Assembly (NCBI GenBank): GCA_014905825.1
Contig: JACGCN010000070.1
Location: 87,868 to 151,867, forward strand
DNA from: Lyophyllum atratum
Lineage: Eukaryota > Basidiomycota > Agaricomycetes > Agaricales > Lyophyllaceae
Direction: 5' to 3'
DNA: 64,000 nt
The first letter of the stretch is position 1; every line of letters starts with the position of its first letter. This document shows, piece by piece, positions 17,162-47,625 of this stretch. The notes under the pieces are model-generated. The model saw only the letters and a list, made by a program, of their open reading frames with translations. It searched no databases and was not told where the DNA came from. Position numbers and translations under genes: made by a program.

Positions 17162-20100
17162 ATGCCTCTCTGGTCGACTCGTGTGCGGACCCCAGGGTAT
17201 AGCTCGTCTATGCGATGGACAGAGGAAGTGGACATGCCCTCCCTCAGACGGACTGGCGAGAAGAGTGGTCCTTCGCATGCGGTAATCCCCAGTCCTGCAA
17301 CTTTTACCGCTCTCGAGGACGGTTTACCTCTGCCGGTACTTCACAATACCGCATCACGTTCTTCAAGTCGTCGCAATAGGAAGTCCGCTCGTGTGGGTGG
17401 CCTAGCAGTCCACTGGGCGAGGTTCAAGCGTCGTGTAGGTACCGGGACAGCCCCCTCAAGTAGTTCTCTGGTTGGAGACAGTGCCGCGGAAAGCAGCAAT
17501 ACGCGCCCAGTGGAGGGCCCCGCGCAGAGTGATACCGATGAGGTCAACGAGGTGGTGGTGGATCGGATATGGTCTGAAGACATCACGAGTTCTATTACCC
17601 ATTCAGAACATGGTGGGAGTCCAGAAAAATCCGGAGGCAGTCACCCCGCTGGGGGTCCAAGCACAAGTGACCACGAAAGTCTGGGACCAGAGGGGTTTTG
17701 GAGTACCCTTACCCCTATAGTTCTTTTGCGTTGGCGAATCTGGCCCGCTATTGTCGAACTCTTCAGCTCCCGTTTCGCAGACGAAAAATCGGAGGTGCAT
17801 TATGCCCAGGTATGACAGCATGCTTTAGAAGCGCTTTGCTCTGATACTTTTCCCGACTTAGGAAAACTGGTTTATCAAAAAGTCCCTTGCACTGTGGTCA
17901 TCGCTCTGGCTTATTCTCAATTGGGTTCTTGGTTGTATCTTTGCCAGGCCTCTATTCCAGGTGTTTGACAAAGTCTTCTACTACGGAGTCAGACCATTCC
18001 CCTTGAAACTTCCGACAGCCCCATTGACCGCATTTTATAGATCGCCCCTGCATTCAGTCTACCTATCATGTACGGACATCCTTTCTTTTGCTGTCCGTAG
18101 CAGCTGATCGATGCTGTGACTTAGTTTCATGGTGATGTACGACTGGCCTCGTGACCGAAGCAATATCTATCAAATGTTTCTCACTATTTCCGTTTGGTGC
18201 TGGTAAGTCTTGGACATCATTTGCAGCCATAGTGCTAACAACGTGCAGGTCGTTTTACTCTATCCTTTTCATGTGAGATCAATTCAAGTTGTCAAGATAT
18301 CGCCTAACAGTTCCTCAGTTATCTATGTCCATTTTATTCAAACGGCCCCCATGTACATCTGAGCTGTCAAGGTCGAGATTTTCTAGGAACATTCTACTAT
18401 ACCACGGTTCCTATGTTTACCTCTCTTTGTTTGCAGACATTTTCTGACTTGACTTCTCCCTTCTCAGGCCTTACAGGCTATAGCTCTTTTTGGCCTCAAA
18501 TTGAACCGGCTACCAGCAGCCATCGGTGCTGGCACCTTCTTCGTCATGTAGGTTTTGAAATCGTATGTGCACCGGCCTTTCTCAACGAACGTGTCAGTAC
18601 ATGTTCTCTGATGATACCTTTGAAGAAAACCTGGGGCAGAAGTATGTACATTTCATTTCTCTAGATCTCGAGAGAAAGAGCTAATCATAGGTGATTTAAG
18701 GCATGATCAACTTCTTCGTATTTCACAGCTGTAAGCACCCTTCTGCTTTCTTAATAATCAAGGACTCTGACATCAGTCTAGTTCTTATCTATGTCCACTA
18801 CATGAGAGAGAGCGTGTGTATTACCAGCCGTCAAGCACGACTGCAGGATATAATTACTGATTCTTCCCCAGTCAGAACGACGCCTTTACACATTGCGGGA
18901 TCAGCTAAAAATACAATATAAGGTAATACCTATGGACAATGGTACGCTGTAGACATAGTATTCACGGCACCTAACACTTCAGGCAACCCAGAAGGCACAA
19001 GTGAACGAGCGGAAGGCGGCAGAGTCGAAGCGGCGGCTTACCTCGTAAGCTACCATTGTGATATCATTTCCCAATTATTCTGATGGTTGTTGCAGATATG
19101 TCTTCCATGATAAGTTTTAAATCCTTATAAAAATTGACCTCTTCCGACCTCCTCCGCCAATACAGGTGCGAGTGCCATTGAACACTGCCCGTGAGTCAAT
19201 ACCTCTGGGGCATGTACACTTCATTTATTGAACATTCTTTAGTCCTAGCAGTGCAAAATATGGAAGCGTCTGGAACTGTCGCCAAAGAGCAGGAAATTGA
19301 ATTTAATGCTCTTGAAGGCAGCCTTAGCATGATGTCGAAAGGTTGTTTTCTCTTTTTTGTGTGTGTGATGAGTATACTAATGTACCGAGAACACAGTTTT
19401 AAATGATGTCCTGGATTTGTAAGTTGACAATTTATGTGTCTTCGGTCACGTCGCTTAGTGTCCATATTTCTTCCAGCAATCGGATGGATAGTGGAAAATT
19501 CGAGTCCGCATTTAGAGTCAGCCTGCTTCACCATTGCTCGCCTGCATCGGTCTAATATTTCTTTGCTCACAGCCGTATGGATTTCATCAAGTCATGCGAT
19601 CGTTGTTCATCCCCCTCCGGCTGACTACCAATGCCCGTGGCCTCGAATTGGAGACCGATCTCGATCCTAGGATTGACCAGGTAGCGCGACGTGCGGCCTA
19701 CGAGGCTATGGGCGAAAGCCAGGAGGCGATCAATAAGCATATGTTTGATCACCCCGATGTTGAAGGTGTTGTAATTGGCGATGAGTCGAGGTTGAGGCAG
19801 ATAATCACCAATCTCGCTAGGTATGGCAATCCAAGTCTATTTCTATCACCTATTGAATTATCTGGCTCTAGTAATGCATGCAAATTTACACCTGCAGGCG
19901 GCAAGCTGACCATAAAGACCAAGCTGGTAATGCCAGCAAGCTTCAACACCCCAGGTGCGCCGTCAACCAGCGATTCCACGAACGGGAACCTCGTTGCCAA
20001 CGGGTACCCTCCGCTTTCTGCGACATATCTCCATCAACATAACAATGAGAGCAAACCAGCGTTAGCTATGGAATGGATTGTGGTTCGCATTGAAGTGACC

Positions 20101-21718
20101 GACACTGGATACGGGATCAAGCCTCGGGATCTCATCCAGAACAAATTGTTCTGTGAGCTCTACATTTGCATCTCTCGACACACGCGTGCTGATTATCCTT
20201 ATACAGCTGCATTCAATCAAACGGAGCAGGGAAGACAGCAAGGTTAGTAAACCATGTTTTCCTGTTGCTCTACCTGACACCTTTTTGTTATAGGCGGGAA
20301 AGGCACAGGCTTAGGTTTAGCATTAGTACGACAAATTGTTAAGCTTAGTGGCGGTCGGCTTGGCGTCCTTTCCAAGGTCAACGAAGGGTCTACGTTCTGG
20401 GTTGAGCTGCCCCTTGGAGTTGGGCGCAAAACTCTGGTTCATTCCAATCCAGACGAGAACTTCAACACGCAATCAGAAGGCGGCTCGCAGACTACAACGG
20501 ACATTGAAAAAGTCCGCATCGCTGCTGGAACGAAAAGTTCGGTGCCCGTATCGATGAGTAATAGCTTGACAATGGCAGTCGACGAGGCGGCACTCAGAGC
20601 GTCCCAGACGCCGTCACAGTCAGCTCGATCCAGCTCTGCTATGCAGACTCTCATGGAACAAGGTCGGGAAGCATTCTATATCAATAACCAGCTACTCAAT
20701 TGGCCCTTTAGGTGGCCGAGTGGAGTTGATTCTCCAGCGACACGGCTCTCACTCTCCTGTACTCACACCAGAATTGGATATCTTTGAACCTGACACGGCT
20801 TCACAGTCTACAAGTGGTAGCGTGGTACGGCCACCTACATTACATTCCGGGTCATCAGCATCTACCACTAGGCAACTGCCGCGTCCAACTTACGTCGCTC
20901 TACCCAGCCCGCGGTCATTCGCCATGGACGCAAATCCAACTTCGAATTCCACGAATTCCTACCGCTCCGACCAATCTTCATCGTGCTCTCCGCTGACACA
21001 GTTTGATTCTGCCTATACTCGGGGAAGTCCTTCATCTTCGACTCCGGCGATCAGCATAGAGCCAGGACTACCCGTCTTGGTGGTCGACGATGACCCCCTC
21101 ACACGAACGCTCATGAAACGTATTCTGACGCGGCTCGGTTGTCAAGTTTCGACTGCCGAGAATGGCGAAGTCGCTCTCGAAATGATTTTAGGGCCCAAAG
21201 GCTTGTATGCCCTTACACCCTCCAGTGAGGCTTCTGGGAACCTTGGTCCAATCCTGGAACAAGAAAGGGATGAGCAGGAATACACGGCGGAAGGGAAGTA
21301 TGCTGTTATATTCTTGGATAATCAGATGCCGGTGTTGTCTGGCCTCAAGGCAGTGGAGAAGTTGCGAGAACTTGGGAGGAAAGACCTCATTGTGGGCGTC
21401 ACAGGTTAGTTCTAGTTGGTCCCCCGCTGCCATTTTACTGACGTGAGGACTCGGACAGGTAACGCGCTGCTGACTGGTGAGTCCTGGGCCATCTCTACCC
21501 GTGCCTTCTTTTGACATTGCCACTTAGACCAACAAGAGTATCTTGAGGCTGGTGTTGATCGGTATATTTTCTGTCCATCATAGGATATCAACTTATATTG
21601 ACATTCTGACGTTCTGTCTAGTGTCTTGACGAAACCTGTTCTAGAACGGAGTCTCAGAGACATTCTAGTTCTGGCAGATGAACGAAGAAAATCATATCCG
21701 TTGGACTCACTTTCATAG
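17162..21718 (+). CDS. Membrane-anchored hybrid histidine kinase
   Basis: Two-component phosphorelay sensor. A hydrophilic Ser-rich N-terminus (about 200 aa) precedes several hydrophobic segments (e.g. SLWLILNWVLGCIFA, MFLTISVWCWSFYSILF, AIALFGLKLNRLPAAIGAG) with the feel of a multi-span membrane sensor. A coiled stretch with ATQKAQVNERKAAESKRR leads into the HisKA H-box SYVFHEVRVPLNTALLAV. HATPase motifs follow: N box NLASNACKFTPAGG, G1 DTGYGI, G2 GKGTGLGLAL. A low-complexity linker precedes a receiver domain with LVVDDDPLTRTLMKR, phospho-acceptor Asp in FLDNQMP, and the Lys in LTKP. More than fifteen short introns are needed. The H-box is split over exons of 14 nt (19096-19109) and 27 nt (19164-19190), separated by an AT-AC intron. 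Start is uncertain: ATGs at 17162, 17210 and 17234 are in frame and an earlier exon is possible. The specific hybrid-kinase group is not assigned. Confidence 0.85.
19096..19109 (+). other. 14-nt micro-exon of the histidine kinase H-box
   Basis: This exon encodes most of S-Y-V-F-H and the first base of the Glu codon. It is bounded by TTGCAG upstream and ATAAGT downstream. Reading phase enters after two bases of the Ser codon and leaves after one base of the Glu codon, giving the conserved SYVFHE. Confidence 0.75.
19110..19163 (+). other. Probable AT-AC intron (54 nt, U2-type) in the histidine kinase gene
   Basis: The intron begins ATAAGT and ends CAATAC. Removing exactly these 54 bases joins TTCCATG to AGGTGCGAGTG and restores the invariant HisKA sequence HEVRVPLNTA. 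The 5' site is a GTAAGT-like U2 site with A at position 1, not the U12 ATATCCTT type. TTGAC at 19134-19138 is a plausible branch site. The only GT nearby (19114) would give a frameshift and an immediate stop. Confidence 0.72.
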
Positions 21719-21991: not shown

Positions 21992-24091
21992 ATGACCGTA
22001 CCAGACGCGCCTTCTCAACTCCCAATGCCCCGCGAGAACTCCCCGCCTCCGAGCCCCCCGTCTCCCAACCCAGGTCCGTTTATTTCCTTGCCACGCTTGC
22101 CCACACACCCTGGTGTTTAGCTATCCGATCTAGATACTGTACTCTCTAGAAAACGAGAGCGAGAGGTCTCCGTTGAGCCAGTCAGCACTCCTAGATCATT
22201 AACGGTTCGTATTTTTCTGGTATGGTTCTTCTTGCCCCCAGCACTCAGACACCAGTGTCCTCACAGGACGCCGATGCACTGCGGGAACACAAGGAAACAC
22301 GCACCCCTGCAAAGAAGAATCGGACGCAATTAGGCACCACTGTAGAAGAAGACGACAGCGGCTCTCGTTCCAGATCGAATTCTGGATCCCCTCCTCAGAA
22401 CGCCTCGCCACCGCAGGAGATGAAGATGAGGGTGCGGCAAATTAGCCAGGGTGTTGAGGACATTAGTTGGCGGAACATGAGAGCAGTCACACCCGATAGG
22501 GATATTGAGGTTGATCCGGCCTCCACACCCATTGCTAGCAGGGACAGAAAGGAAGAGGCGGCCCCGACAAACGAGCCAGCGGACCATGAGGGTGAGTAAA
22601 TTCTAAGCATCTCGTGATTCCGTAACCTTACTTCAGGGCGTTACCAAAGCATTAATGTCTGCGGTCCCGCCAGAAACTGCGGACTTGGAGACTGGAGATA
22701 AGAACCTGAAGCGCAAGTTCCTGGAACGTGGAACCAGTCAAGGTCCACAAGATAGTAACGATGCTGCCTCAATGCCTTCGGAGCCTCTCAAGAGACTTCG
22801 AGATGATCCCGAGAAAGACGATAACCCGCGAGAAACCAAACGACCTTCGCCACCGCCTGAACCGAAGTCGCCCAAGTCATCGAAGAAGTCACCTCCGACC
22901 ACGACTCCGAAGCTTGTAAATATTGCACTTACACATCTCTTCCTATTACTAAATGACTCCACTTCTAGAGTGGATTTATGGCATACGCGTCGACGAGCTC
23001 TCCCTTCGCCTCTGTTAAAGGCCAAAACATCTTCTCATCCAATAAGGCGGCTTCGCCTCCTCCCCTTGCCAATCAAACGCCTACAGCACCTATTCCAACA
23101 TTTGGTTTCAGCTCAGCTGAAGCTTCGGGCTCTTCGTCTATGTCTATGTCTACGCCTGCTGTGAAGCGCTCCGGTTTCGAAGCGTTTGCTTCCTCTGCGT
23201 CGCCATTTGCGTCCGCCTCTCGTTCCAAGTCGCCTGTCTTGTCATCAGCTTCCAAACTCAGCCGCAACAAATCACCACCCCGGCGTGGCGGTTCGGCCAA
23301 CTCCAATGCCTTCTCGTCGTACGCTGCCGGGGTCCACAGCTTCGCTATTCCACCCCAGAAGCGGGTACGGGCGGGCTCACCTAGCAGCTCCTCCCGCAGC
23401 TCTGTGGAGCGGACCCCGGGTATCAGTGTCTTCGGCTCTAACGGAGCAGCGTCCGATAGCGGAGCTGAGGACGAGAAAGAGGATAGAGGCAGCTTCGGTG
23501 AAAGGCTGAGGGCTGGCAAGGATGACGAAGACGATGGGAAAAGTGACGAAGAGGCTAAGTATATGTTGACGGAACAAGATTGTAGGTCCCCTCAACGCAT
23601 ATGTGGGATGATACTGACGTTTTGCGTTAGTGCTCACCGGAGAGGAAGATGAACAAACTGTTCATCAAGTACGAGGGAAACTATTCTCCCTTGTCGGCGG
23701 AAATCAGTGGAAAGAACGAGGAACTGGGACATTGAAGCTAAATGTGAAGCGCTTAGACGGGAGTGGGGCCCGCTTAGGTATGTCGCCTACTCTATGCCAG
23801 CGGTGTGGTTTTTGACCTGGGTGAACCAGTAATGCGGAAAGAAGCAGTTTACACCTTGCTGCTGAATGTCACTCTATTCAACGGGATGCGTTGCTCGCTC
23901 GCTCAAGACCCTCGATATCTGAGATTTAGTGTCATCGAAGAGGGAACCACAACGCACTACAACTTGAGGGTTAGTTCATCTCCGTTTTTCTTCTGGAATT
24001 TCCATTCAAGTGTTCTTTCATACAGCTTGCGAGCGCAAAAATTGCGAAGGAACTGCTGGAGGAGATCAATGCCAATATACCCTCCGTTTGA
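21992..24091 (+). CDS. Ran-binding protein of the RanBP3/Yrb2/Hba1 type
   Basis: Nuclear Ran-GTP-binding cofactor, expected to assist exportin-1 cargo export. The C-terminal ~130 residues form a RanBD1 domain: LLTGEEDEQTVHQVRGKLF, SLVGGNQWKERGTGTLKLNV, then LLLNVTLFNGM and a late LRFSVIEEG. The first ~400 residues are low complexity, rich in Ser/Pro/Lys, with clusters of basic residues (e.g. RKRERE, LKRKF) that could be nuclear localisation signals. They also include FG-like and FAS repeats (PIPTFGFSS, SPFASAS) resembling Yrb2/RanBP3. Exon 1 begins at the ATG at 21992 and at least seven short introns follow; the last exon ends NIPSV then TGA at 24089. It lies 273 bases behind the histidine kinase on the same strand, which does not suggest a shared function. 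Confidence 0.85.
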
Positions 24092-24509: not shown

Positions 24510-25726
24510 ATGGACAACCCTTTCATCTACGGCGGCTTAGCACTATTCAGCGGAATCGCATTGTCCGTGAGTGCTCCGTTATCAAACATCTCATCGGCTC
24601 AGCCGCATCTTCCATGATGAGCACCCTTTCATCCTTGTTCTTCGAGTCACGGGCCACCTTCACAGGTGTGCGCTGTGACGAGGACGACACACTTGGGTCA
24701 GGGTTCATACCCCTGCACTGAACTCCATCTTTTCATTCACTTCCAGGACTTACAGATTGCTGATTACTCCCAGTTGTATCTAGCGTTGGTCTTCTGGTCA
24801 CCCTCGCCAATAATCACACACAGCTCGGAGAAAAAATACCGCTCACATGCCTCCCCGAAAACACCCCTTCCACTAACTCGCCTCACGGAACCTAGCTCCG
24901 TTGACCTCACCATAGTCGTCCCTGCGTACAATGAGACTGAGAGACTGCCGATCATGATGGCCTCCGCCGTCGCGCATCTGGCATCGCAGAAGAGCCGTAC
25001 TTTTGAAATTCTCATCGTGGATGACGGTTCCACGGACGGCACCTCCGCGACAGCACTCAAGCTTGCGGCCAAATACCCCAAATGTAATATCAAAGTCGTG
25101 ACGCTAGAGAAGAATATTGGGAAAGGAGGGGCCGTGCGACATGGAATGTTGTACTCGAGTGGAGAGCGCATGTTGATGGCTGATGCTGACGGCGCGAGTC
25201 GCGTCGAGGATTTGGAAGCCTTGTGGAAAACTATGGATGGCCTGGTGCCCAAGAACGAACCTGCGGTGGTTGTCGGAAGCCGCGCACATCTCGTCAAGTC
25301 GGAGGCAGTAGTCAAAGTACGTGAAGCACGGTCTTTCTCATCTCTCTATGCTCTGACGATCACTGGCAGCGCTCCTTCCTTCGCAACATCCTGATGTACG
25401 GTCTCCACACCATTCTCCGCATCGTTGGCGTCGGACACATCCGCGACACACAGTGCGGCTTCAAGCTGTTTTCACGAGCGGCGGCACAGCAAATATTTCC
25501 AGCACAACACCTTCCTACATGGATATTTGACGTCGAGCTCCTCCTTCTAGCTAAGCAGCTACACATTCCCGTTGCAGAGGTTCCTATTGAGTGGCACGAG
25601 GTGGCGGGAAGCAAACTGAACGTGATGACGGGTTCATTACAAATGCTACGGGACTTGTTGATCGTCAGGTCGAATCATCTGCTGGGCCGATGGACGGCTA
25701 CTCCGGCGAAGAGAAAGTCGGACTAG
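24510..25726 (+). CDS. ALG5: Dolichyl-phosphate beta-glucosyltransferase (Alg5)
   Basis: Makes dolichyl-phosphate-glucose from UDP-glucose and dolichyl phosphate on the cytosolic face of the ER, feeding the last steps of N-glycan precursor assembly. Three exons (24510..24566, 24774..25316, 25370..25726) join in frame to 318 aa, a normal size for the family. The N-terminus is a hydrophobic anchor split by the 207-nt first intron (IYGGLALFSGIALS / LYLALVFW). A GT2 catalytic domain follows: DLTIVVPAYNETERLP, DDGSTDGT, NIGKGGAVRHGM, DXD-type MADADGA, VVGSRAHL. The family block RDTQCGFKLFSRAAAQ and a late WHEVAGSKLNV are present. The frame is complete and the gene looks functional. The unusually long intron 1 contains further potential splice sites. 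Confidence 0.93.
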
Positions 25727-42101: not shown

Positions 42102-45100
42102 ATGAACGTCGCTGACCTGCTGCAAGACTCGCCCTCAGACGATCACCGCCGACGTCAGCCTCCAGTGGCAGACACCCAGCTTCCCCCACCGGGACCGCCA
42201 GCACCAGCACCTCCTGGTCCTCCAGCACCGCAGACATCGTCACCGGCCTGGCACCGTCCCGCGTCCTCGTGGACTCAGCCACCCCCAAATCCTTATCCTC
42301 CGTCCTCCGGCCCCGCCCCTTACTCCACCTCAGAACGACCCCCGCCCGCCGGACCACCGTCGTCCACGGGTCCCGCGCGTCCACGTCCTCCGCCTCCATC
42401 CATGCCCTCCTCCGCTGGGTCCACGCCCATCTACCCTACCCCCGGCCCGCTCTTCCACGGCCCTGTCCCCCCGCCCCCACCAGTCAATGCCACCGCCCCC
42501 GCGCCAGCCGCCCCGCCATCGTCTTCCCCGCCGACGGCACCCGCAATGCACCATCGCCTCCCGGCGCCGCCGCCGTCGACACATCCCTCTCCAGCTATGG
42601 CGTCGCTTCGCCCGCTCGATGCCCAGATCGCGGGTGGCGGTGCTGGGGCTGTTGGTGGCTGTGTCTGGGGGCCGCCTCCGGGATCTGCCTTGGACCGTGA
42701 CCGCCACGACCGCATGGACTCATGGCCAGACCGTGAGCGCGAGCGCGACAGAGAACGAGAACGCGACCGCGAAAGGGAGAGGGATCGGAGAAAAGGTCTG
42801 CCCCTTTTTTAACCTTTTTTTAGGTGAGGTGATGCTGACATCTTTTACAGAGGTTGATCAACAAGTGCCACCACATCAGCAGCATAGTCAACAACAACAA
42901 CAACAACTGCACGCCAGACGTGATTCGAGTGGGAGCAGCGCTCAGGCCCTCCGTCGTCCGCGCAGCAACACCGCCAACAGCTCCGCTGCAAACACGGAAG
43001 TGGAGAAGGCAATGGATGATGGGATGAGAGAGCGCGAGCGTGAGAGGGAGAGGGAAGTGTTTGCTCGGGACAGGGAGAGGGAGTACCGCGATCGTGATCG
43101 TGATAGAGAGAGTCAGATGCAGCAGCAGCAGCAGCATGCCCTCATGCATCCCCGCCAACCCCTGCCACCTCACGTTCCCCGCGAACGTGAACGAGAGCGC
43201 GACCGAGAGAGGGACAGGCCACCCCCACCGCCACTTCCGCGTGACCCACGGGATGAGCTGGTGCGCCCGCGGGACAAGGATCGTGAGCGCGAACGAGAGC
43301 GGGAAAGAGAAAGGGAGCAGAGTAGGCAGGACATGGACGCCATCCGCGCCGTTCGTCAAAGCCAAAACCCCAACCCCAACATGGGCGCCACAAACCCAAC
43401 CCCCACCTCTGTTCTCCCAAGCGCAAGCCAGAGCCGCACGCATACACCCACACTCGCATCGACGACTCCGCGTATGCCACCCGTGCCGCCCGTGGGTTCA
43501 AATCTGGCCATGTCGCCGTCTGGCATGATGCCGGGCGCTGGCGCTGATGTGATACCGCCGGGCCCGGGTCCAGCCCCGCCGCCTCCCCAGCAGGAATTCC
43601 GCGGCCCGGGAGGGATAGGAATGGGGGGTGGTGGGTACCCTGTGGGTGGGAGAGGGACGCCTGCTGAGCGGGAGAGAGAAAGAGAAAGTCAAGGGGAGAG
43701 GGAGCGGGAGGCTCTGATAGGTAGGGAGAGGAGTCGAGATCTGGAATGGGAGCGGGAGCGCGAACGCGAGAGGGAGAAAGATAGAGGAAGGGATAGAGAG
43801 AGGATGTACCCTCCCTATGGTGACCGGCCTATAGGTGGACTCGCTCTCGACCGTGAAAGGGAGAGGGAAAAAGAAAGAGAACGCAAAAGGAGCGGGGGAC
43901 TGGGCCGGGAGGGAGATCGCGACAGGGAGAGGGACCGCGAACGCGAAAGGGAAAGGGAAAGGGAACGGGAACGAGACCGAGATCGTGACCTCCGAGGCAC
44001 TCCGATGGCACACACTTCATCCCTAGGCCCGCCCGCCCCGCCTCACCCCTCACAGCTTCATCCTCAGCACCCACACCAACAGCACCAATCCCTGCACGGT
44101 CACCCCCACCAGCACCCTCTCGGACACCCAGGCCCCGGCCCCGGCATGGGTCCAGGACATCCCCACCAACTCCAACAGCAACAGCAACACCTCCACCTCC
44201 ATGGGCCCCCGCCACCCCCACCCACTCAGGGGCCGGGTCTATACCACAAGCCCAGCTCCAGTCTGCACAGTCACCACCCACCGCCGCTCTACGGCTCCCC
44301 GCCATCTGGACCGATGATCCCGCCGTCTCAGGGCGCGGGACAGGCCCCACTTCCGCCGCCCATGGTTGGTCCTGGCTTACCGCCCGTTCCTCCTCCTCCA
44401 CAGCAACAGCAACAGCAACTACAGCAGGAGCACCAGCGGCGGGAACAGTTGCCGATTTTGTCGCTGGCGCCGCCTGCAGCTGTGCAGAGGCAGTATCAGA
44501 ATCAGTTCCATACGCAGTTTGTGCCGGGTTTGAATGCGGGTGGGAGTCGTGTTGGGTCGCCTGTGCCTGTGAAGGAGCGTGAGAGGGAGAGGGAAAGAGA
44601 TCTGGGCAGGGAGCGCGAGAGAGATAGGGAGAGAGAAAGAGAGCGGGAGCGGGATAGAGATCGGGAGAGGGAGCGGGATGGAGGCAGGGATCGCGAGCGC
44701 GAACGGGAGCGGGAGCGAGAAAGGGAGCGCATCGAGCGTGAGCGTGATCGGGAGCTTGCCCTAGGCCCAGGCGCACCCTCCCTACCCGCGAAGCGCACTA
44801 AGAGCGTCGCGGGCGGCAAGCCGAAGGAACAAGACCTCGAGCGCGAACGGGAGCAGCAGCAGCGGGAGAGGGAGCTTGAAGAAATGGGCCTGGGCCTGCA
44901 ACGCCCGGCCCCTGCCCCGAACCCATGGTGGACTGGGCCTGGGGCACCACCGCCCCCGCCTCCGCCTCCCGTGCAGCAGCCACCACACGTGGGACCCGGC
45001 CTGGGTCCTGGTGTAGGCCCTGGCGACTATCCGCCATATCACCCGTACGAACGGGTTGGGTACCCTCCTGCCGGTATGGGTGGGGATGGGTTCTTCGTTG

Positions 45101-47625
45101 GTGGTAGGCCCGAAGGGCCGGGTGTGGCTGTTGGTGAGAGGACATGGGACGGCTGGAGGGAGGAGTGGGAGGAGGAAGGAGAGGAGGAAGTGAAGGCGCG
45201 AGTGAGTGTGAATCTGGGGACGTTTGTGTACCCGAAGGTGCCATTTCCCTACTTCTTTGATGTTGGGCCCCGAGTTGGTGGTGGGGAGGCCAAGGGCATG
45301 GAAGGGGAGGGTGAGAAGAAGAGGGATGGTGGGAGCGTGAAGGATGAGAAGGCGGGGACTCCTGCCGCGAAGGAAGTTCCGTCGGGTGCAGACGCTATGG
45401 AGGTGGATGTTCCTGCGCCTGCGTCAGCCGTGGAGAGCGAAGCCGTTAAATCGGCGGCCCCCACAGCGGAGGGTGTGAAAGCGATGGATGTGGATAAACT
45501 CAATGACGAGGATGACGAGGAGAAGGTCAAGGAGCGCAAGGAGCGGGAAAAGGTTCAAGGCAAAAGCGCAACCCCTCCTCACGAGCAGGACAAGGATCGG
45601 GAGAGCGTCAAGAAGGAGAAATCCAATACTCCGAAGCCTGAGGAAAGGTCGGCTCCCGCCAACGCTACTTCTAGAGTGGAGGCGTTTACCGTCGATATCG
45701 AGACGCTTGCCACCGTCATCATTCCTAATAAGCACATCCCCCTCGAACGGCCCAAGCGTCTGCGCCTCTGGGGCGGCGGCGTCATTCCCCGGCCCAATCC
45801 CAACGCCCCACGCAGACGCCCACTGCCCTCGGGACCCCCATCCTCGGATAAGCCACGCCGGACACCTAGCCGACGTGTGAGGAGAGTGTACACGGACGAC
45901 TCGGATTTGTTCTTGTGTGCCGTGCACTCCGGGTGGGCCACCTGGAGCGGTGCGGCGGCGGCACGGAGTGAGGGTAAAGAGATGCGTGTGGAGATGAGGG
46001 TTTTGCGATGTGTGGGGGCGGAGGGCCCAGGGGCGGGGGCGGGAGTTGAGGTGTATCGCGGGAAGGAGGAAGTTGTGGGACGGTTCCTTGGGGGTCGAGG
46101 GGACAAGTATGTGGGACCTGGTGGAAGTGAGGCCGTCAGGAAGGATGCGGATGTGGTCATGCGGGAACAGGGAGATGGAGAGGAGGACGATGGAAGGGGG
46201 TTGGAGAGTGCAGCCTGGGGCGCTGGGCACGATGGCAGTGCCATCGAGATTGTCAATGTCCAGTTTGTCGAGGTGAGTCCCGTCTTTTTTTCGTGCGTTC
46301 GCGTTTCTAAACTTTTGGATTCTATAGAAGGCCTCTTCCACTGCTCTGCGCGGTTTACGCAATCGCTCACAGCGACTTCTGGAGTATCATGAACGCCGCT
46401 TGCACGTCGTCGGAGCACCACCCACATTCGAGCGACCTCCTACCTCGAGATTGGTGGGTCGCAAACGACGGAGAGGTTGGGACTGGCCAATGTACCAACC
46501 TCGCCGATTGCCGAATGCCACTGTACTGGACCCAATACGCGAGCAACTGGAAGAAGACGAGAACGCGGCGAAATACCACGGCGATCCGGACGAAAATGCT
46601 TCGATGAATGTACAGACTCTGGTATTTGGCGTCAGCCCTGCTGGGGACATCCAAGCTGGGTCAGTACACTGCTTATTGTCTTGGGAATGTGAAGATCCTG
46701 ATATTCCTACAGATTCAAATACGATCCAGAGGTCCTAACGGAGGTCCTGTTCCCGTCTTCTCTCACTGCGTTCGTACATCCACCCCCGAAGAAGCGTCGG
46801 CGCCTTAATCACGATGACGCTGAAATGGCAATGGACGTTGATGGCGACAGTGCACCTCCAATAATCCGGCAACTCATAATGGAAACTGCCAAGGAGAGTT
46901 ATTTATTGTCGCCCAGTGCCGGAAGCAGCATCCGGGAGTATGATATCTCTCTGATCCTGGAGGACGAGATCGACGACGCAGAAGGTCAACCCGTTGTGTT
47001 GGATTCCGTTCCTGATGGAACCCTGCGACCGACTACTGGTACTAATGGTTCTGAAGCCCCGTCGAGAGCCGCAGTCCTTCCGATTGATGTCCAGCGAGAG
47101 TCAATCAAGAATGCCCCACCAACCGTTCCCGAATCTGCTCCTCCAGGTCCTCGACCCTTAGAGTCGGGTCAATCTCCTCGCAATACTGCCGACGCGTCCA
47201 AGGATGTTAATCCCCCTACTCTCCTAGCCACCAATCCGAATCCTTTGAGTCCAGTCGTCGAACCTCCGCAACCACCTTCAGCGACAGGTGATCACGCAGC
47301 CAATGCGCCCCAAGACCCTGAGCGGCCTGAACCTGGTGAAACCGCAGACATTCTGCCAACTACAGATCTGAATCCACATACCGCCAATTCTCCCGTGAAC
47401 AACCCCCTCTCCCCATCCACTGTGCCCATCGAAGTGCTCGAGGACAAAGCAAAACCACTGCCGTTGCAGACGCTACAGCAGAACCTGGGAGCAGATATGT
47501 TCAGGTTCACGAAGGAAGGTGTGTACGTTGCAGATGGGCTGAACGAGGAGATGAATGTGAGGACCGAGTGGGTCGTGCAAGTGAAAAGGTGGAGATGGGG
47601 GCCGGAGGGGCAGGAGCTGAAGTAG
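42102..47625 (+). CDS. Rxt3-type subunit of the Rpd3L histone deacetylase complex, with giant Arg-Glu repeat region
   Basis: Four exons (42102..42795, 42851..46272, 46328..46659, 46713..47625) join perfectly to 1786 aa. Residues ~10-200 are Pro-rich; ~205-880 are dominated by RE/RD dipeptide runs, poly-Gln/His and Pro blocks. The conserved part lies around residues 1000-1450: VSVNLGTFVYPKVPFPYFF, ETLATVIIPNKHIPLERPK, DDSDLFLCAVHSGWATW, then EIVNVQFVE spliced to LLEYHERRLHVVG. This matches the fungal Rxt3 domain (histone-deacetylation protein). The last 300 residues are acidic/Pro-rich and close with a short folded-looking piece, ADMFRFTKEGVYVADGLNEE and EWVVQVKRWRWG. Start is the ATG at 42102 (an upstream in-frame TTG is not used). 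In yeast Rxt3 is a small Rpd3L subunit; this protein is several times longer. Sequence here is GC-rich and strongly repetitive. Confidence 0.82.
42718..44760 (+). repeat. Arg-Glu/Arg-Asp coding repeat tracts
   Basis: Several blocks (about 42728-42795, 43026-43110, 43175-43320, 43664-43990, 44573-44757) are built from CGNGAR/AGRGAR hexamers encoding RERE/RDRE. They are interspersed with CAG/CAA (Gln) and CAC (His) runs at 42885-42910, 43120-43135, 44035-44210 and 44400-44425. Long antisense open frames here are by-products of this composition. Confidence 0.85.

Follow-up and report, generated by a model that had tools for sequence, protein, structure and literature searches.

How does a gene encode a sensor kinase when the codon that follows its phospho-accepting histidine is cut by an intron without the usual GT and AG ends? 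The question arises from a 64,000-nucleotide window of the Lyophyllum atratum genome, by which we mean the whole stretch of DNA that was analysed. Here a hybrid histidine kinase gene carries, as its intron 13, an interval of the very rare fungal AT-AC kind that cuts the active site of the enzyme. We propose that intron 13, with its AT-AC ends, is spliceosomal, that the ordinary U2 spliceosome most likely removes it and that it is probably ancestral to several Agaricomycete orders, a reading that we regard as very probable on the strength of genomic and protein sequences. That it is spliced in L. atratum we infer from its sequence, the reading frame, a second copy of the gene, the quality of the donor site and the pattern among orthologous proteins, each of which is described below. 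For the wider question of how non-standard ends of introns survive, intron 13 provides a natural test case.

An earlier note on this DNA had called AT-AC introns rare in fungi, and published figures agree. In fungal annotations they are rarer than CT-AC introns (PMC7072748), and the accessible text of two further reports puts AT-AC at 0.0235% in Coriolopsis trogii (PMC13395996) and at 0.014%, or 13 introns, in Ganoderma lingzhi, where one such intron, in a zf-C4pol gene, was checked by Sanger sequencing (PMC11590231). The G. lingzhi introns likewise lie in an Agaricomycete and were likewise missed by gene finders (PMC11590231), but the Sanger-checked one belongs to a different gene, zf-C4pol rather than a kinase. 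Genes of the zf-C4pol kind were located in the L. atratum genome as well. The available main text of PMC11590231 nowhere mentions "histidine", and no report of intron 13 was found in the accessible literature on fungal or mushroom AT-AC introns or on AT-AC introns together with histidine kinases. As far as these texts extend, AT-AC splicing in mushrooms is already known, and intron 13 of the kinase appears to be unreported.

A Tco5-like kinase gene with one non-canonical intron

The gene, as modelled here, occupies 17210..21718 on the plus strand and reads as one open frame across 25 exons, with 24 introns and 3222 coding bases (stop codon included), for a protein of 1073 residues. Its start codon was chosen by us; the public L. 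atratum model, P0001, begins further upstream. All 24 introns are 46-61 nt long, and several exons measure only 14-32 nt. The ends are GT-AG in 23 of the 24 introns, intron 13 being the sole exception. A second odd intron at about 18070-18124, suggested by a phase mismatch, was dropped when orthologues revealed a canonical intron at 17988-18040. The 24-nt exon at 18249-18272 (SFYSILF) is also absent from P0001, which reads WCCYLCPFY there.

When intron 13 is removed as an AT-AC intron, the HisKA, HATPase_c and Response_reg domains each score above their Pfam cut-offs. HATPase_c and Response_reg do so with or without this splice, whereas HisKA does so only with it (35.8 bits, as against 21.6 in P0001; cut-off 26.9). 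We assign the protein to the Tco5-like kinases from the joint presence in one protein of a His-Glu HisKA, HATPase_c and Response_reg, whose order is the same as in Tco5-type fungal hybrid histidine kinases; the Tco5 name is also carried by deposited orthologues of Suillus, Pleurotus, Imleria and Leucogyrophana. Compared with these kinases, the L. atratum protein is ordinary, and the point of interest is intron 13.

The junction at the H-box

Intron 12, a GT-AG intron (19045..19095), lies directly upstream of a 14-nt exon, ATATGTCTTCCATG (19096..19109), which closes with the codon of the phospho-acceptor His and a single further base, the first of the Glu codon. Intron 13 follows at 19110..19163 (plus strand, 54 nt, phase 1) and reads ATAAGT...AATAC. 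Its 5' splice site, ATAAGT (19110..19115), is a U2-type site in which the first G is replaced by A, and its 3' end, AC (19162..19163), abuts the AG (19164-19165) with which the Glu codon closes. The next exon, of 27 nt (19164..19190), supplies the remainder of Glu and then VRVPLNTA. These features bear out the earlier observation that an ATAAGT...AC interval splits the H-box between the phospho-accepting histidine and the glutamate that follows. The accompanying claim that exact removal restores the phospho-acceptor block also stands: when the junctions of the stretch that keep the frame and avoid stops were enumerated, 341 in all, YVFHEVRVPLN resulted solely from removal of 19110-19163 or of the one-base slide 19111-19164, which has TA-CA ends and leaves an identical mRNA. 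A twin-intron (stwintron) arrangement was set aside on reasoning, as the exon to be joined would need its end at 19109 in that case too.

The earlier note was right about one canonical alternative and overlooked another. As it held, the GT at 19114 fails, since joining it to an AG gives no in-frame, stop-free product. The alternative that escaped it is a GT-AG interval at 19100..19165 on the plus strand (GTCTTC...ACAG). Taking it out keeps the frame at the cost of VFHE, and this is the form adopted in the public model, P0001 reading SYVRVPLN at the H-box. Were this the true intron, the protein would lack VFHE and with it the phospho-acceptor His, as an inactive or receiver-only isoform might. 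The interval is the sole GT-AG pair that keeps the frame, and P0001 and 14 others among the 199 listed proteins described below carry the VFHE deletion or a near-identical one. Against this, all 23 GT donors of the kinase gene outscore its GTCTTC donor, its removal would take away the most conserved catalytic block, and it leaves the His-Asp read-through models of relatives unexplained.

Transcript-like sequences speak against the deletion as well. We defined these as all rows with lgn or jgi as the sole source tag, which come from contigs no longer than 7.2 kb, show long uninterrupted frames and are presumably cDNA-derived. The H-box is intact in 23 of the 24 transcript-like clusters and unspliced in one (P0113), and VFHE is deleted in none. 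We therefore consider it quite improbable that 19100-19165 is the true intron, and retain the AT-AC junction.

Which spliceosome removes intron 13

The next point is whether the AT-AC interval resembles the other introns of the gene. With the terminal dinucleotide excluded from the score, the context of ATAAGT scores at least as well as 21 of the 23 GT donors of the kinase gene, from which donors the score matrix was itself derived. An AT donor context of this quality that coincides with AC at the 3' position imposed by the frame would be expected at about 1e-5 per forced junction, with both registers included. A candidate branch site, the pattern match TTGAC (19134..19138, plus strand), lies 26 nt from the intron end; branch-like matches elsewhere in the gene are mostly closer to the end, and the pattern is missing altogether from 4 of the 24 introns. 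By eye, intron 13 also contains a pyrimidine-rich stretch.

The terminal dinucleotides are shared with U12-type AT-AC introns, and a TCCTTA stretch near 19122 could recall a signal of that class. Minor-spliceosome components also have some precedent among fungi; Cutaneotrichosporon oleaginosum, which we take to be a basidiomycete, is the case in point. The accessible text of one survey reports U12-type snRNA genes for this one fungus (PMC7072748). In contrast to U12-type introns, however, intron 13 has an ATAAGT 5' site rather than ATATCCTT; over its full length the site reads ATAAGTTT, which departs from the U12-type RTATCCTT. TCCTTA does not show the branch A pattern and is remote from the 3' end, and inspection by eye of the last 30 bases of the intron found no U12-type branch site.

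The snRNA complement of the genome points the same way. Within a search set made up of U12, U6atac and U6, U12 had no genome match among 42 first-look candidates scored and U6atac had none over the cut-off among 46 (best 18.8 bits against 33), yet U6 had ten matches over the cut-off. Loss of U12 is moreover reported for Basidiomycota in the available text of PMC2846911. Removal of intron 13 as a U12-type intron by the minor spliceosome is accordingly a highly improbable reading. The earlier statements that U12 signals are absent and that the intron has U2 character are both upheld, by the lack of a U12 5' site, by the donor context and by the finding of U6 without U12 or U6atac. Judged from these signals, intron 13 reads as U2-type. 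It resembles known U2-type (type II) AT-AC introns in having an otherwise ordinary U2-type 5' site and no U12 5' site; it differs from them in splitting the active-site motif of a histidine kinase, in seeming to be common to several orders, and in being known here from sequence alone.

The ten U6 matches score equally and lie on contigs C63, C69, C86 and C87, several of them within tens of kilobases of one another (loci L014-L021).

A second copy with the same ends

The earlier note had named a GTAAGT/AG intron misread in the assembly as the alternative. A change of A to G at 19110 would create a GT donor, so that an error, or a recent mutation in a damaged gene, might have broken an ordinary GT-AG intron. 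The genome, however, holds a second copy of the kinase gene on contig C75 (95.75% identity over 8 kb), which keeps the ATAAGT and ATAC ends although 4 of the 54 bases of intron 13 are substituted. Because the same ends recur despite these four substitutions, a base error is very unlikely. In addition, an in-frame GT-AG intron at exactly this position would require changes at both ends, the remainder of the 1073-codon frame is open, and the His-Asp reading recurs in relatives. To an error or a recent mutation as the source of the AT-AC ends we therefore give almost no weight.

Across the gene, the C75 copy differs from the window at 73 of 1286 intron positions and 94 of 3223 exon positions, a single base beyond the stop being counted with the exons. 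A stretch lying 25 kb onward in the window also has a counterpart (89%) on C75, about 27 kb beyond the kinase copy and similarly oriented, which makes it most likely that C75 represents the other haplotype; on this sequence evidence we describe its kinase copy as probably the other haplotype. The stretch in question, at 44000-45200, matches not only the syntenic C75 (89%) but also contig C79, on the reverse strand, at 99%.

The H-box in related proteins

Relatives of the kinase were drawn from three protein searches, in which the best 120 of 3800 matches, the best 120 of 163 and all 66 were taken, together 199 distinct proteins. The queries of the 163- and 66-match searches contained read-through residues, and His-Asp forms are enriched among their matches; the 3800-match search is not biased in this way. 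Its query was a draft sequence, with a wrong short piece before residue 330 and, within the scored region (330-760), an alanine too many (SAAFNQ in place of SAFNQ). Among the 199 listed proteins the H-box is intact in 148 (three Amanita proteins with PLH were classed here), reads His-Asp in 26 (P0185 is included; P0055, whose motif match lies elsewhere in the protein, is not), lacks VFHE or nearly so in 15 and is otherwise broken in 10. The corresponding counts in the best 120 of 3800 are 89 intact, 9 His-Asp, 14 VFHE-deleted and 8 other.

The residues that follow the histidine in read-through models are informative about the first intron bases. Asp follows His in all 26 read-throughs, and Gly in none of the 199 proteins. 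Reading on from CATG into AT encodes Asp, as AC would too, whereas GT would give Gly. The residue after His-Asp is K in 16 models, E in four, M and T in two each, and N and I in one each, and these fit mainly ATAAG, ATGAG and ATATG, which are normal U2 donors with G1 replaced by A. The HDK, HDM and HDE models thus suggest ATAAG, ATATG and ATGAG intron starts, respectively, in which case the rest of the 5' site would evolve normally while the first base stays A. At the other end, Gln directly precedes VRVPLN in 8 of the 32 non-intact rows containing that motif, which implies C as the last intron base provided that the Gln codon shares its final AG with the Glu codon; the preceding residue in the remaining 24 rows apparently comes from an annotated junction. 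Where the reading is continuous, the predicted intron length is 60 nt (P0078), 57 nt (P0113) or 48 nt (P0125).

His-Asp models occur in five Agaricomycete orders: Agaricales (Hypsizygus, Termitomyces, Mycena, Amanita), Polyporales (Fibroporia, Trametes), Boletales (Leucogyrophana, Suillus, Imleria), Russulales (Artomyces, Heterobasidion) and Hymenochaetales (Sanghuangporus, Coniferiporia). Taxonomy was confirmed for one species per order, in Agaricales for L. atratum itself, and the remaining genera are placed in the orders to which we take them to belong. This breadth suggests an old, shared and often misannotated intron; judged from the protein models, the AT-AC intron looks old and common to several orders rather than local. 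The search directed at early branches (66 matches) added one His-Asp protein, from a Mycena, and found no Asp read-through among the newly listed Cantharellales and Phallomycetidae-type relatives. Since the newly listed proteins of Ceratobasidium, Botryobasidium, Ramaria, Hysterangium and Sistotremastrum have an intact H-box, intron 13 may be missing from early branches. More generally, relatives annotated as intact may have a GT-AG intron at this site, or none at all. In the leaf order of a tree of 165 of the 199 proteins, the only aspect of it considered, intact forms are interspersed with His-Asp and deleted ones. No relatives came up in a scan of viral contigs.

Apparent misannotation of the active site

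A comparison covered every one of the 24 junctions in 104 orthologue models, namely the best 120 of 3800 minus 14 transcript-like rows and minus two whose lengths fall outside 800-1400. Disruption affects junction 12 in 24 and junction 13 in 26 of the 104 models, and each of the remaining 22 junctions in 0 to 6. One could attribute this to the 14-nt exon alone, most relatives having an ordinary GT-AG intron here: gene finders have difficulty with so short an exon, and the adjoining junction 12 is disrupted almost as often. Yet the junctions that flank the 18-, 22- and 24-nt exons of the kinase are disrupted in 0 to 6 of the 104 models, so exon size alone does not explain the misannotation, and a GT intron read past the histidine would yield Gly rather than the Asp of all 26 read-throughs. 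The short exon as the only cause is for these reasons a distinctly improbable account, and we attribute the frequent removal or garbling of the active site by gene-prediction software to the AT-AC intron.

The consequences may reach beyond one gene. If the pattern holds, the catalytic histidine is wrongly missing or garbled in public protein records of this kinase for a good part of the mushrooms. The H-box is non-intact in 31 of the best 120 of 3800 matches, and these, if misannotated, would mislead counts and studies of sensor kinases.

Persistence of the AT-AC ends

The ends of intron 13 match those of an ordinary intron except that A stands for the first G and C for the last. In yeast, according to the accessible text of PMC8283771, the G-G ends of an intron can be replaced only by A-C, and the A-C combination in intron 13 would be this one accepted substitute for the G-G contact. 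Its removal would join the phospho-acceptor His to Glu and complete the HisKA domain. An ancestor shared by several Agaricomycete orders probably already had the intron.

A return to GT-AG would demand that the A and C ends change jointly. If A1 alone reverted to G, a good donor would face AC|AG, and the AG two bases on would be favoured; the product would be out of frame with an early stop, the same mRNA as from an AT-AG splice. If the last C alone changed, the A-C pairing would be broken. The AT-AC ends may have persisted because each single step back fails in this way. The age of intron 13, its U2 dependence and this reason for its persistence are points that we infer. Such a frame lock would make the persistence explicable without a regulatory role.

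The suggestion in the earlier note that the intron could serve as a splicing switch finds no support. Retention of intron 13 introduces a stop in the L. atratum gene and an open insertion in P0078, P0113 and P0125, a difference which argues that the retention product is not conserved. Retention itself is seen in one contig, P0113, a partly spliced, cDNA-like sequence in which, by eye, introns 12 and 13 are kept and introns 14-21 are gone. It is conceivable, though unlikely, that intron 13 is an ancient, selected control point whose slow or conditional removal, together with the 14-nt exon, sets the amount of active kinase while the AG of the Glu codon keeps the AT-AC ends locked for very long periods.

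Neighbouring genes

Downstream of the kinase, a plus-strand frame at 23618-23815 resembles a RanBP1 domain by eye. PF00638 is also present in the kinase models P0093 (Amanita) and P0128 (Sanghuangporus), which on this account look like fusions with a neighbouring gene and hint at conserved gene order. Further along, open frames at 24621-25726 look, by eye, like a dolichyl-phosphate glucosyltransferase (family 2 glycosyltransferase).
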